Shown here: one piece after another, positions 31,635 through 38,741 of the stretch
How the letters are laid out: each line of letters begins with the position of its first letter
How positions within the stretch are numbered: the first letter of the stretch is position 1
NCBI GenBank assembly: GCA_958296045.1
Contig: CATQHT010000003.1
Span: 631,246 to 695,245, forward strand
DNA from: Rhodothermales bacterium
GTDB taxonomy: Bacteria > Bacteroidota > Rhodothermia > Rhodothermales > Bin80
Length of the DNA stretch: 64,000 bases
Reading direction: 5' to 3'
Notes under the pieces: model-generated
Database searches by the model: none
What the model was told of the DNA's origin: nothing
The model's input: the letters and a program-made list of their open reading frames with translations, nothing else
Position numbers and translations under genes: made by a program

Positions 31635-33109
31635 ATTTAACAAGGAAGTGCAACACTTGATTCGGCAGAGCAATGGGTTGGCGAGCGCGTTAGCATCCCG
31701 ATGGAGCCGTAGGGTCCAGAGGCTGTTGGTATGTATTGTGGATTCATCATTGGAGGGTATCAGATGGCAAAGGGCTACCGTCATCTTTCGTACGAGGAAA
31801 GGGGTCAAATTCATGCGTTGAAGAGGCGGGGGGATTCAATACGCGCCATAGCGCGACAGTTGGATCGTTCGCCATCGACGATCAGTCGAGAGGTGCAGCG
31901 CAACAGTGGAGGTAGAGGCTATCGGTATAAGCAGGCGGACCAACTGGCTCGTGTAAGGCGCCAGAAAGCGTCGTAGCATCCTCGTAAGACGACCGCAGCG
32001 CTGTGGGCCATGGTGCGCGAGAAGCCTGCATTGCACTGGAGTCTGGAGCCAATCGCGGGTCGGCTTCGTCTTGACGGGGTCATTGCGGTGAGCACCACAT
32101 GGATCTACCTGGTATACTTGGAGCGACAGAGCAGCTGGGGGATCGTTGTGCAAGCTGCTTCGCCGCAGCGGAAAGCGTTATAACAGACGTAGCCAGCGCG
32201 GTGCTGGGCGCGGCCTGATACCGAGTCGTAAAGACATCAGCGAACGGGATCCCAAAGTGGAGAGGAAGGCGCGTATAGGCGACCAGGAGGTGAATACGAT
32301 TATTGGGGGCAAGCACCAGGGTGCGTTGGTATCGATGGTCGACCGTGCGTCGAAAATCACGTTTCTTGCGCTGGTATCTTCGAAGGCAGCGATCAGTGTC
32401 CGCCGCGCGATCGTAGCGTGTCTGAAACCGGTGAAGGATCGGGTGCTTACCATCACGGCGGACAATGGGAAGGAATGCGCTCATCACCAGCACATCGCCC
32501 GGGCCCTTTCAGCGTCGTTTTACATTGCGCGGCCGTATCATTCCTTAGAGCGTGGCCTGAACGAGCACACCAATGGCCTGGTACGGCAATACTTGCCGAA
32601 GGCGACCAACTTCCGCACTGTTGAGCCGGCAGCGGTAATGCGGGTACAGACGATTCTGAACGATCGTCCACGCAAGCGCTTGGGTTACCGCACACCGGCG
32701 GAAGTCTTCATTGGCGCACGGTAGGCTGTAGCGGCCGCTGTGGATGGTGCACCAAGGTCTGAGCCAGACCCGACGGCAGAAGCCGGTGTGCCTGGATCAG
32801 CGATTCCCAGCAGTCCAGCCTGAGGTGATGGATTGATTCGGTCGTATCACCAGAACGACCGGTAGGGCACGATACCGTCTACATGCGGCATCATGGATGG
32901 CTGCGCGCATAGGAAAGGGCGTTTGTCCCGCTGGCGCCGAAGCTCTTGGGGCCCAAAGCGCTGTTTTAGTCTGCCCGACGCCGTCCCATCTCCGGTCTGG
33001 TTTCGCCCTCCCTTCGATAGAACGGCCCCTTCCTGCTCTCTTCGCTAACCTCTGCCTCTATTTGCGAGCACACTTACCTGATTGCATATGTTGCGCTTCG
33101 GAGTTAAAC
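31635..33109 (+). mobile_element. Degraded IS30-family element
   Basis: Imperfect inverted ends: TTTAACAAGGAAGTGCAACA at about 31637 on the plus strand and, on the minus strand from 33108, TTTAACTCCGAAGCGCAACA. The transposase (31764-32724) is broken. About 360 bp between the gene end and the right repeat have no coding content, unusual for IS30, so the right boundary is uncertain. Confidence 0.45.
31764..32724 (+). pseudogene. IS30-family transposase, broken
   Basis: The start MAKGYRHLSYEERGQIHALK and helix-turn-helix (RAIARQLDRSPSTISREVQRN) are clear. A TAG stop interrupts at 31974-31976, the same frame continues (IAGRLRLDGVIAVSTTWIY) to about 32180, and a frameshift near 32140 moves the gene into the frame of 32146-32724, which carries the integrase-like core. 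In that core the usual GDWEGDTI block reads GDQEVNTI, so a catalytic Asp is changed, while TADNGKE and SLERGLNEHTNGLVRQY remain. It is an inactive remnant. Confidence 0.85.
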
Positions 33110-33394: not shown

Positions 33395-33808
33395 GACCCG
33401 ACGCGCAACCTGCGGTGTGGGCGCAAGTTTCCAACACCTTTCCACTAAGAATGGCCCACTACCCCTCGTCCCGGCGTAGAGGACTTTGCTCCGGTTTTGA
33501 CCACTTCTATACCCTTTCAACACGTCAGTAGCGGTCCACTCTCGTTCAACTCCGTAGTCCATACCTGACGAGATCCTACCATCGCCATTTCTACACTCGC
33601 TCACTACCGGACCCTCAAAGCTAAGCAGCAGCCGGTGGTTGCAGCCTCCCCCTGTAGGACGGCTGCGAAGCACCTGCCTCCATCTCCAATGCAGTAACGC
33701 TACCCTTCCGTTATTCAACGAATGTTACTTCCGTGCCACTCGTGGCACGCGCCCCTCAGGTATCGGGGCACCCCGCTGGACCCAGGTAGCGATGCCGGAC
33801 AAGCTGGT
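33395..33808. other. No gene seen between the IS110 relic and the thioredoxin-like gene
   Basis: No open frame has protein-like composition. The region probably holds insertion-sequence debris. Confidence 0.35.
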
Positions 33809-34342
33809 CTACCGAATCAGTTCTTTCTCTTCAATGCGCTGGGCAACTACCTCATCCAGCTTCGACGCTGTGCGCTCCAGCACAGACACCTGAGGCGTCC
33901 CATCCATCAGGTGCAGGTACGTACGCGCACCCAACCCGTATTTACTGCGTCCCATTGCAATATCGTCGAAGTGATCAACCTTGGCCAAGTGGTCTACGCC
34001 GTCTCTTGTATCCCAGTCTATGGCAATACCCATTGCCGAAAACGATGCACCGTGTGCTGCAGCGTGCTCACGCACGGCAACCATCGCGCTGTCAACCACG
34101 CCAGCTAGATCAGGATTGTTACACCACCAACAGGCCGCAGAACCGAAATACACCAGTACGAATTCACGTTCCATCGGGCCCGTGATTGATGGTGTGTATT
34201 GCATCGAGTCTTCGTGATGCGCACTTAGCCACTGGACCGTGATGGCCGGGAAGGGCAAGATGCCCAAGGCAGCCAGTACAAACGTCACGGACAACGCTAA
34301 CGCGACCGCTGCGCTCCTCGAGCCTTTGCGATGTGGGGCCAC
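33809..34342 (-). CDS. Membrane-anchored thioredoxin-like protein
   Basis: A 177-residue protein with one N-terminal hydrophobic segment (about residues 9-32) and a small domain starting FVLVYFGSAACWWCNNPDL, where Cys71-Trp-Trp-Cys74 is in the position of a thioredoxin-fold redox site. The second half (HFDDIAMGRSKYGLGARTYLHLMDGTPQ) resembles the substrate loop region of thioredoxin-like proteins, but the usual cis-Pro is not obvious. It probably faces the periplasm. It is the last gene of a three-gene cluster, 11 bases after the propeller lipoprotein, and could form or isomerise disulfides in the Cys-rich peptide encoded first. Confidence 0.75.
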   Translation of the reverse strand: MAPHRKGSRSAAVALALSVTFVLAALGILPFPAITVQWLSAHHEDSMQYTPSITGPMEREFVLVYFGSAACWWCNNPDLAGVVDSAMVAVREHAAAHGASFSAMGIAIDWDTRDGVDHLAKVDHFDDIAMGRSKYGLGARTYLHLMDGTPQVSVLERTASKLDEVVAQRIEEKELIR

Positions 34343-34353
34343 CGTTGTGTCGG

Positions 34354-35571
34354 TTATCGTGTGGCGCTAGGTATGGGATGGATCCCCAGTTGAGGATACG
34401 GTGAGGATCGGGAAGTGTATAGACGGTCCTGGTCCATGGTTCGTACAATAATCCCACTAGATAGCTGAAAATTGACTGGGTGCACTCCCAGATACTTGCC
34501 ATATCCCGACAATACATCCACTTTGTAAAAGTGATTCGCCCAACGGGCCCCATCTTCGGATAGCCTCTCACGGCGCGTCAGCCAGAACGAGTTTCCGCGC
34601 GCTCCCCCCGTGATTTCGAGGTGGCCCGACTCATCAACAAGTGGCGGCAAACTCCCAATTGCCAGATGCCCTGTCTCAATATACCTCGCTCCTTTAGAGG
34701 CTATCCGGGCATCTGCAAGCCTGATCTGCCAGATTATGTCACCCGATTCGGCGAACGCGGTCGCTATGGGAGCGTTCGGGTGTGTGTACAGAAGAGTGTG
34801 ATGTGTCGTGTTACATTCCATGTTGCCCCCTTCTGCCATTTTTGCGCGCACAATCAAGTGAGGGTCGTTATAGCGTTCGCCAAACGACGAGACGTACTCC
34901 CCTTCTAAGGTGTATTTGTGGATCACACCATCGAGGTCTTCGGAGTATCCTGGGGTATAAACATGTCCATGCATCGCGCACATATCGCTGTTGGCAAACG
35001 CCACGGCAACTCTGAACGATGTCCGGAATTCATGGCTACCACCCTGGTTTCTGCTGAACACCGACACCGTTCTCGCACCGGAACCGACCACTACATGCAC
35101 ATCTTGGCCTGTATCTGTAACAGCAACTTTTCTCACGAGGCTGAATTCGCCCGGTCCTTCCCCGGGCCCTCCGATGATGTCTACTAGGTGGCCTTCAGAA
35201 TTGTAGGCCCGGACATGACTGTAACTTCCATCCACATAGTATACGAGGCTGTCACTAACCGCCACATCCCGTATTGTGCCAATCATATCGTCCAGATCCC
35301 CGTCCGCGACGCCGACCGTGTGACCCCCACGGAGAGCAGCCAACACCCATAATAGCGTGTCCTGAGAATCGTCATGGATGATGAACCTAGGATCTGTGAC
35401 CGCAGGAATGTTGCCGGGGGTTGGATGGAGTTCGAATTCACCGTACAACCCCGTACCATCAACTGCGACCCCATGAACGTTGTCGGTGCCTGCACCATTC
35501 TGGCAGGCTGTGAGCAGCACCAGGGCCAGCGGGAACAGTAGTGTCTGCTGAGACAGCGTCAAGGAGTGCAT
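34354..35571 (-). CDS. Propeller lipoprotein (6-bladed beta-propeller type)
   Basis: A 405-residue protein starting at MHSLTLSQQ. The signal LFPLALVLLTACQNG has a good lipobox with Cys at about residue 23. The body has propeller-type blades with the IIGGPGEGPGEF motif near residue 138, which is characteristic of the NHL/6-bladed propeller proteins common as lipoproteins in Bacteroidota. The start overlaps the end of the Cys-rich peptide gene by 13 bases and the stop is 11 bases before the thioredoxin-like gene, so the three are an operon. Probably a surface or periplasmic binding protein. Partner and ligand unknown. Confidence 0.82.
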   Translation of the reverse strand: MHSLTLSQQTLLFPLALVLLTACQNGAGTDNVHGVAVDGTGLYGEFELHPTPGNIPAVTDPRFIIHDDSQDTLLWVLAALRGGHTVGVADGDLDDMIGTIRDVAVSDSLVYYVDGSYSHVRAYNSEGHLVDIIGGPGEGPGEFSLVRKVAVTDTGQDVHVVVGSGARTVSVFSRNQGGSHEFRTSFRVAVAFANSDMCAMHGHVYTPGYSEDLDGVIHKYTLEGEYVSSFGERYNDPHLIVRAKMAEGGNMECNTTHHTLLYTHPNAPIATAFAESGDIIWQIRLADARIASKGARYIETGHLAIGSLPPLVDESGHLEITGGARGNSFWLTRRERLSEDGARWANHFYKVDVLSGYGKYLGVHPVNFQLSSGIIVRTMDQDRLYTSRSSPYPQLGIHPIPSATR

Positions 35572-35864
35572 TCCCACGAATAGCATGTGGTGTACGGACC
35601 AAGAAAGTCATAAGCGCAGCCCGTACCTGCATCGTCAGGATATGCCATGCAGAGACCACACCAGTCCAGATCCCCAGACCAACCACAATCACTTGTTCCG
35701 GGGTTCCCAAGTTCATAGCAGTCCAAATCATTATATGGCGCAGTTGTCGCCTCCACATCCCTGGGGCTGATTACGGGTGCCACAACCCCGCCAGCGAAGT
35801 ACGCCCCTGCGATAAGCGCCATCACGACCAGTGCGCGTGTCAGATAGGTCGTGCCGCTTTTCAT
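35559..35864 (-). CDS. Small Cys-rich exported peptide, NVEALA-like
   Basis: A 101-residue precursor. The N-terminus MKSGTTYLTRALVVMALIAGAYFAGG is a signal-type segment, followed by a short spacer ending DVEATTAP and a 55-residue Cys-rich tail with seven cysteines (LDC, SDC, DWCGLC, TGC, TTC, WEC). The layout (basic start, hydrophobic leader, xVEA-type motif, small Cys-containing tail) recalls the NVEALA family of Bacteroidota, whose genes often adjoin 6-bladed propeller genes as here. The match is by architecture only. It is first in an operon with a propeller lipoprotein and a thioredoxin-like protein. Confidence 0.7.
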   Translation of the reverse strand: MKSGTTYLTRALVVMALIAGAYFAGGVVAPVISPRDVEATTAPYNDLDCYELGNPGTSDCGWSGDLDWCGLCMAYPDDAGTGCAYDFLGPYTTCYSWECTP

Positions 35865-36251: not shown

Positions 36252-37017
36252 TCAAGATGAGTCTTCCGGGTTTTCCGACACGTTCACGTTAGCCATTTGC
36301 TTACGCATCGAGTCGCCGGTCAGCTGGATGCGGTGCGCGTTGTGGACGAGGCGATCCAGGATAGCATCGGCGAGCGTAGGATGTTCCATGGCCTGATGCC
36401 AGCGTTCCACCGGGAGCTGGCTGGTCGCAATGGTGGAGCTGACCTGGTGTCGGTCATCCAAGATTTCCAGCAGATCATCTTGCTGTGCACTGGTGAGTTT
36501 TTTCAGCCCCCAATCACCAACAACCAGCACGCTAAGCCGCGACAACGTACGCAGCAGCTTCAGGAGCCGGCCCTCTGCTCGCGCCAGCGCAACGTCTTCG
36601 AGCATTCGTTGCAACCGGAAATAGCGCACTTTAAAGCCTTTTAGGCAGGCGGTGTGGGCCAGCGCACAGGCAATATAACTCTTACCCACGCCGGTGGGGC
36701 CGGTGATGATCACGTTCTGCTTTTGGCGTATCCAGTCGCATCCGGCCAAATACAGCATGAGGCGACGGTCCAGTCCGCGATGCATGCGATAGTCTATGTC
36801 CTGCATACACGCCTGTTGCCGTAGCCGAGCGCGGCGAAGCCGTGACTTCAATCGAAGGCTTTCACGCCGGTTGGCTTCGCGATCCACCATCTCACCGAGG
36901 CGGTCCATGTAATGCCACCTGCTCAATGCCAGGATGGTTTAGCTGATCGCGCAAAGCGTCGGCCATGCCATAGAAGCGAAGCTTCTCGAGCTGCTCTATC
37001 GTTGGGTGTGTCAACAT
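36252..37017 (-). pseudogene. istB: IS21-family IstB, frameshifted
   Basis: The start MLTHPTIEQLEKLRFYGMAD is at 37017. The frame is lost near 36905 (HPGIEQVALHG then a stop) and continues in the next frame as HYMDRLGEMVDREANRRE with the AAA+ core: Walker A GPTGVGKSY, Walker B VLVVGDWGLK (where the family normally has DDWG or DDFG) and IATSQLPVERWH. One base is missing or extra at the junction, so full-length IstB is not made unless by recoding. Confidence 0.85.
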
Positions 37018-37021
37018 GGAA

Positions 37022-38550
37022 CTAAGCGTTGTTGTCAGGGGGGCCGGCGTAGTACTGGGCACCGCGGATGTTGTCGTGCATGATGGGCGGGTCCTCCTCT
37101 GCCTGGTACAGGGTAAGCCGCTCAAAGCCACGTTTCAGAACATTAGCGATGCTGCTTGTGCGGAAGATCTGGTGCACTAATGCCCACTTACAGGCCGCCT
37201 CGATGTGCTCGCCCAGATAGGCGCGCTTAAGGTCCAGGAGCCCCCAGTGAAAGCCCTGCTCAGGATGCCTGCGGCGCTCTATGATGGTCAACGCTACCTT
37301 CTCCGTGTTCGGACCGATCTGCGCGGCACGCTCAAGCAGGCGATGCTGCTGGGCGTACTCCTGATGATTCGAAGGCATATGCTCAGAATGTGTGCTCCAT
37401 CCGTAGACCTTGGGGCATAACATGTGGGATGCTCTATACGTTGGTTACCAAGGTATATCTCCACGGTAGCTTCCCCCACGCATACGTTCACCTTGCGCCG
37501 GACATGCCGATACGGAACGCTGCAGAACCGCTTGTTCACCGCCACATCATAATCAAAGCTCACCGTGGCCACTTTCCACTCCCTATACTCAAAGGGCTTC
37601 GAGGGTAAAGGGCGCATCGCGGGCAAATCCACCGCCTCAAACTGACTGCGACGGCTCCCTTCGCGCTTCTGAAAAGGAGTATCATTCAGGGTAACCAACC
37701 CCTTCGCAATCCGCTCATTGAGCATATCCAGCGTGAGGTAAGGGACCGTACCCAAGGCGGCCAGAATCCACTGCTCCACTACTTTGACCGCAGATTCGAC
37801 TTTGGCCTTATCCCTTGGTTTTCTCGCGCGAGCCAGCAGCGCTACCAGATCGTAATGCTCGCACATCTCCTGGTAGGTAGGATTGATTTCCGGATCGTAG
37901 CGGTGCGCCTTCTTGACTGCCGCCTTCAAGTTGTCAGGCACCACCGCCGCCGGTACCGCACCGAAAAACTCAAAGGCCCGACGATGTGCGCCAATAAAGC
38001 TCCTCAGCGTCTGGTCTCCGGTGGCCTCCGCATACGTGTAACTGGAAAAACCCATCGTGGCCACAAAGACCTGAGCTGGCTTCGGCTGATCACGCACCTT
38101 TATCGTCATGCCCGCAAAGTCCGCATAGAGCTTCTCACCCGCCTTGTGGTGCAGATGCATGGTCACCTGCGTGCGGTGGCGCCAAGCACGATATAGGTCA
38201 CAGAAACGACTGTAGCCGTAGCCGTCTGGATACGTTGCACGGTAGGACTGCCAAACCAACTTCAGCGTCATGCTCGACCGCGACATCTTCCGATGCACCT
38301 CCTCCCACCTTGGCTCAGACTTGTGGCGCACAGAAGCCTCCGCATACAGGCGTGACTCCAAACCATGATCATCCATACCCTCCGGCAGAGGCCAGGACAG
38401 ACCCGCATGCTTTGCACGCTCCAAATACGCCCTCACCGTACTGGCTGAAACGGACAGACACTTCGCAATCTTGCGATTGCTATACCCCTCCCGGAAATGC
38501 AGCCGAAGCACGTCCCTAATCGCCCGCATAGACACTCGCTTGTTTGACAT
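37022..38550 (-). pseudogene. istA: IS21-family IstA, frameshifted
   Basis: The start MSNKRVSMRAIRDVLRLHF leads into a helix-turn-helix (SNRKIAKCLSVSASTVRAYL) and the DDE core (YADFAGMTI, AVVPDNLKAAV, KPRDKAKVESAV). The first frame carries residues up to about HPTCYAPR at 37420, then continues correctly only in the second frame (KVYGWSTHSEHMPSNHQEYAQ), giving the C-terminal 125 residues to 37022. One frameshift near 37410 inactivates it. It ends four bases before istB. Confidence 0.87.
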
Positions 38551-38741
38551 CAGAAACTCGGTTGGTGATTGAGTTCCTGATATTAAGCAGCTGACGGATC
38601 CCCTCCGATACCGCCACTGCTCCACTGCCACCAGCCAAAACCACACACCTGTAAAGGCCTCTACTCAGCCCCGAGACAGGCGTCAGCAGCCCTCCACAAG
38701 TGTCCAGATTGCCTCGGATTACCCGTCCAGCTTGGATCGGA

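Follow-up and report, generated by a model that had tools for sequence, protein, structure and literature searches.

A recurring three-gene cassette for a predicted exported Cys-rich mini-protein, a propeller lipoprotein and a thioredoxin-fold protein in Rhodothermia

The cluster lies on the minus strand of the window, by which we mean the whole 64,000-nucleotide stretch analysed here, from a Rhodothermales genome of 4.78 Mb in four contigs. ORF calls and translations confirmed the three genes proposed by the original prediction, a mini-protein, a propeller lipoprotein and a thioredoxin-like protein, together with the 11-base gap between the second and third genes, the 101-residue precursor with its DVEAT motif and seven Cys, and the CWWC site. 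The features are as follows.

35559..35864, minus strand: gene 1, predicted exported Cys-rich mini-protein precursor, 101 amino acids (aa), based on the ORF and its translation, family alignment A10, a profile match and purifying selection
34354..35586, minus strand: gene 2, six-bladed (NHL/TolB-like) propeller lipoprotein, 410 aa, lipobox LLTAC, start at 35586 or 35571
33809..34342, minus strand: gene 3, membrane-anchored thioredoxin-fold protein, CWWC, 177 aa from a GTG start, shortened by an in-frame TAG
35733..35735, minus strand: codon 44 of gene 1, TAT (Tyr) at the position of the family's first core Cys, from DNA and protein alignments
33731..33808, minus strand: homologous continuation of gene 3 past the in-frame stop (TSLSGIATWVQRGAPIPEG...), corresponding to the C-terminal part in relatives, from frame translation and DNA and protein alignments

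The profile match of gene 1 (E = 2e-15 in a search of the local loci) is to a model that includes the window row among its own sequences. Genes 1 and 2 overlap by 28 bases when gene 2 is read from its first ATG (34354–35586) and by 13 bases when it is read from the second (34354–35571), and the 13-base overlap described earlier holds for the latter start. A Shine-Dalgarno-like GGAGGGGG lies upstream of gene 1. Other copies of the cluster (for example, L049) have a GTG start overlapping the propeller stop, which is missing in the window copy. Directly upstream of the cluster are IS21-type istB and istA-like genes (36252–38646), and downstream is a decayed IS30-type transposase (31731–32724) split into two ORFs, with an HTH_38 match and a weak integrase-core match. 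Further along, on the strand opposite to the cluster, lies a propeller of the virginiamycin B lyase family (PF24684; 30182–31456) with an N-terminal extension that contains a CTASCH stretch.

The window peptide has a hydrophobic leader at approximately residues 10–32, DVEAT at residues 36–40 and tail Cys at positions 49, 60, 69, 72, 83, 94 and 99. It belongs to a family of 58 distinct sequences with a hydrophobic leader and six core Cys, typically spaced as CExDxC...C...C...C...C; C-x4-C opens 51 of the 58 tails, Glu directly follows the first Cys in 41 and Asp stands at +3 in 37. Window-type peptides carry two Cys beyond these six, making a CGxC. An AxA-like site lies between leader and first Cys in 52/58 mini-proteins, compared with 41.7 ± 2.5 in shuffled sequences (0/2,000 shuffles as high), with signal peptidase I cleavage scored from the motif alone. 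In the window, DVEAT is better read as a predicted signal-peptidase-like site, V37-E38-A39 before T40. The peptide genes have dN/dS values mostly of 0.09–0.43, with one close pair at 1.2, and the structure model of a typical member consists of the leader helix and two beta-hairpins, with moderate confidence in the tail (pLDDT ~75–86). This model had no usable structural match in the PDB, a sequence search of solved structures with the peptide returned no matches and no Pfam or NCBIfam family was matched. Fulvocin-related proteins and CefA were rejected as identities for the peptide, both being single-member, weak matches (E = 0.11 and 0.95, respectively).

The long hydrophobic helix of the mini-protein could also stay in place as a membrane anchor. 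In that case the peptide would go unreleased, its helix in the inner membrane and its Cys-rich tail forming the periplasmic portion of a permanent complex of all three proteins, such as a redox or metal sensor, which we regard as possible but doubtful. The predicted helix, at ~30 residues, exceeds the usual signal sequence and contains a near-invariant Gly, the thioredoxin is likewise membrane-anchored and the acidic CExDxC motif could bind metal; however, AxA-like sites precede the first Cys more often than in shuffles, and the stretch linking the helix to the first Cys is variable in both length and sequence.

The propeller profile matches NHL propellers of known structure (E = 2.5e-8), and against DUF5128 (PF17170) the protein scores 17.6 bits, below the gathering cut-off of 22.9. 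It shares the matched propeller repeat region with NHL and six-bladed propeller lipoproteins (DUF5128, ScyF-like and TRIM-NHL folds) but falls below every curated cut-off and forms a subfamily of its own tied to the peptide. Paralogues of gene 2 in the same genome are 57–58% identical, and those of gene 3 67–70%.

No Pfam thioredoxin family matched the gene 3 product at cut-off, and a sequence search of solved structures with the thioredoxin returned no matches. Its AlphaFold model (pLDDT 87.5), with a predicted membrane helix at residues 6–25, adopts the TlpA/ResA/tryparedoxin fold (best VIA Z 8.4, rmsd 3.2 over 104 residues). The cassette thioredoxins resemble TlpA, ResA, CcmG and tryparedoxin proteins in fold, periplasmic membrane anchor and cis-Pro position, but differ from them in having a GSxxC motif, in usually having lost the resolving Cys and in being tied to propeller and peptide genes. 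The first Cys is present in 69/74 aligned rows and, with the cis-Pro position P150, is invariant in a 31-row alignment. The second, resolving Cys is Ser or Ala (CxxS or CxxA) in most trios, whereas the window keeps CWWC and several other trio thioredoxins retain CxxC. By an alignment-based count of rows that are not independent, CxxC occurs in 12/56 propeller-linked versus 8/10 stand-alone thioredoxin homologues (Fisher P = 7e-4), and the resolving position requires at least 13 changes on the tree. By eye, and again across non-independent rows, extra Cys pairs in the peptide appear weakly linked to CxxC thioredoxins. VKOR, a general disulfide catalyst, was found in 30/30 relatives searched, including genomes without the cassette.

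These observations weaken the earlier proposal that the peptide is matured by its CWWC thioredoxin: with the resolving Cys lost in most trios and VKOR found in all 30 relatives searched, the cassette thioredoxin probably does not act as oxidant for the peptide. A role as isomerase or mixed-disulfide partner would fit a single-Cys thioredoxin better than one as oxidase.

The same three genes recur well beyond the window. Further window-subtype copies lie in the same genome at ~0.87, 1.35 and 0.44 Mb of contig 3 (the last decayed), with more distant cassettes at 0.04, 0.23 and 1.79 Mb. A search of the order with the thioredoxin alignment gave matches in 30/114 genomes, and the named relatives found with the propeller were mostly Rhodothermales metagenome-assembled genomes, whose bin names (for example, RHO1, CAR3 and bin80) we take to suggest sponge symbionts. 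A plasmid search with one thioredoxin gave no match. On reading the loci, we found the order peptide, propeller, thioredoxin in six families of the order (f1, f3, f4, f5, f12 and f14) and in a further family of the same class (f18). Based on features alone (a small ORF with a hydrophobic segment and at least six Cys behind it), a peptide-like gene lies upstream of 21/45 propeller–thioredoxin pairs versus 3/211 other genes in the same loci (Fisher P = 2e-15). The family model places a peptide beside 44/56 propeller-linked thioredoxin rows, a partly circular figure, since loci of this kind went into building the model. As an independent check, the A4 model, from which f18 sequences were left out, found peptides upstream of f18 propellers with E down to 4e-11. 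Alignment A4, used in this first search outside the order, shares with A1 an L044 row with a non-native leader (MKTVTHLLTDARTIV), that copy being frame-disrupted there; A10 and A11 contain native translations only and replace A1 and A4, and our conclusions rest on them where possible.

Pairwise distances are correlated between peptide and propeller (r = 0.68), peptide and thioredoxin (0.72) and propeller and thioredoxin (0.88), a congruence expected for any co-inherited operon. The nearest relative lies in the same genome for only 6–11 of 40, which argues for a long coexistence of different cassettes within genomes. No other conserved neighbour recurs beside the trio in the surveyed loci. The original prediction had named a lack of recurring neighbourhood or of Cys conservation as evidence against it; instead, the triplet recurs across the order and class and the Cys pattern is conserved across the family. 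That unrelated genes came together by chance could be entertained for the window copy, which sits between IS30-like and IS21-like elements and is partly degenerate, but recurrence in tens of loci under selection refutes this and leaves it virtually no probability. The cluster is real, conserved and uncatalogued, as seen in its anatomy, its conservation and its folds.

The copy in the window is probably a decaying member of this set, judging from its alignment to the nearest paralogues. Where nearly all relatives have the first core Cys, the window peptide has Tyr44, which accounts for its odd number of Cys; with that Cys lost and an odd number remaining, the peptide cannot form all of its disulfides. 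The paralogues have sense codons at the TAG that ends gene 3, beyond which the window sequence is still homologous to them. Two sister copies carry frame disruptions in the peptide leader, and in one copy in genome G002 the peptide is interrupted by a transposase-bearing insertion. The damage in these copies could be genuine decay or could stem from consensus errors in metagenome assembly, and its concentration in these genes, with adjoining propellers intact, favours decay.

The closest parallel is with the NVEALA (PF14055) and TolB-like six-bladed propeller (PF15869) loci of Bacteroidales, on which, as for DUF5128, the set of papers searched contained nothing. In two genomes of Bacteroidales type, as judged from their NVEALA matches, most NVEALA genes sit upstream of a TolB-like propeller lipoprotein, followed at three of these loci by a CTSC thioredoxin-like lipoprotein. 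The order is thus the same, peptide, propeller lipoprotein and thioredoxin-like protein (in some loci a thioredoxin-like/DUF1573 lipoprotein), and both systems share a short precursor, a hydrophobic leader, an xVEA-type site before a variable Cys-containing tail and several copies per genome. They differ in that NVEALA tails have few and irregular Cys whereas the mini-proteins have six, in the propeller model (TolB-like versus DUF5128-like) and in the thioredoxin, a CTSC lipoprotein in NVEALA loci but membrane-anchored and mostly CxxS/A in the cassette. Signal peptidase I (Peptidase_S26) genes lie within two NVEALA clusters (L256:12835-13725 and L258:1293-2180), which suggests that a dedicated peptidase cleaves at NVEALA; no signal peptidase gene recurs beside Rhodothermia cassettes.

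Sequence comparison did not extend this parallel to homology. PF14055 gave no match to the window peptide at E ≤ 10, matched 0/20 relatives, was absent from the matches of 31 mini-protein family members and, among 395 genomes of the phylum, matched none from the same order or class. The NVEALA motif itself does not follow the leader, which is succeeded by DVEATT in the window and by varied AxA-like sites in relatives. Profile–profile alignment by hhalign joined only 19 leader columns of the mini-protein and NVEALA profiles (prob 27), with no similarity beyond the leader, and the thioredoxins and propellers of the two systems could not be aligned above noise (prob 3.8 and 3.1, respectively, some of the alignments being small). 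The profile search proposed earlier gave no PF14055 match, and of the comparison with NVEALA loci the architecture, a peptide upstream of a propeller, stands while membership does not. Nor is the thioredoxin an addition special to the window, as had been supposed, since it recurs in the trios and is present in some NVEALA loci. A divergent true homologue of the NVEALA cassette would account for the common gene order, the comparable length of the leaders, the V-E-A ahead of the tail and the presence of both a TolB/NHL-type propeller and a thioredoxin-like gene, but given the leader-only alignment, the noise-level scores and the differing Cys pattern of the tails we consider this unlikely. With no homology from sequence comparison, the cassette can be said to work like NVEALA loci, not to be one.

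Bacteroidetocin loci of Bacteroidetes also place a small Cys-containing peptide next to a thiol oxidoreductase, the peptides having a 15-aa double-glycine leader and four Cys and being served by an ABC exporter with a peptidase domain (PMC6671954). These loci lack a propeller gene (PMC6671954), and the cassette lacks the 15-aa double-glycine leader, the four-Cys tail and the peptidase-ABC exporter. No such exporter recurs beside the cassette in the surveyed loci, and the family alignment has no short double-glycine leader at the cut site, the one Gly pair being unconserved and inside the hydrophobic helix. The mini-protein might still be an antibacterial peptide, with the propeller lipoprotein as its immunity or carrier protein, as the small, Cys-rich, diverse and multicopy peptides and the bacteroidetocin pairing would allow. 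Besides the missing leader and exporter, however, most mature tails look acidic rather than cationic by inspection and the thioredoxin is mostly CxxS, and we hold this role to be rather improbable.

Our preferred reading, to which we give an even chance, is that the three genes form a cassette for a mini-protein that is secreted, disulfide-bonded and bound by the propeller, with the thioredoxin as its isomerase or mixed-disulfide partner. It is supported by the fixed gene order, the AxA-like site, the six Cys under selection, the lipobox of the propeller and the membrane-anchored thioredoxin with its near-invariant Cys. Signal peptidase I would cut the leader and free a domain of 35–60 residues into the periplasm or to the surface, where the general VKOR pathway would oxidise it. 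The single conserved Cys of the thioredoxin-like partner may then form or rearrange mixed disulfides with the mini-protein, as isomerase or holder, with full CxxC chemistry presumably limited to some subtypes such as that of the window. The lipid-anchored propeller would bind the folded mini-protein as its cognate partner and hold or present it at the envelope. The presence of several diverged cassettes in one genome points to distinct pairs that are not interchangeable, as of ligand and receptor.

A bolder version, which we put forward as speculation with little probability, is that six-Cys mini-proteins across the class each have their own propeller receptor, and that the single-Cys thioredoxin tethers them by a mixed disulfide and hands them to the propeller, in a ligand–receptor (or toxin–immunity) system that is parallel to, or shares ancestry with, the NVEALA cassettes of gut Bacteroidales. 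The cassette itself brings together, class-wide and in one compact unit, an uncatalogued family of predicted secreted Cys-rich mini-proteins and an uncatalogued thioredoxin-fold family. It also gives the unexplained NVEALA/propeller loci a distant parallel in which a shared peptide, propeller and thioredoxin logic becomes visible, and with it two testable ideas: that V-E-A within NVEALA marks a signal-peptidase site, and that the peptides are disulfide-bonded ligands of the propellers.

Some loci depart from the simple trio. In f3, double cassettes (L152, L160, L162 and L164) contain one CGPS thioredoxin for two propellers and two different peptides, of which the first is of an HPFCE type and the second of an xHCEYD type. 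At L139:1038-1898 (+), a second peptide gene of the family lies on the opposite strand just past the cassette. At L155:6194-7947, two peptides whose Cys are arranged differently, perhaps members of a sister family, precede a propeller that has no thioredoxin.
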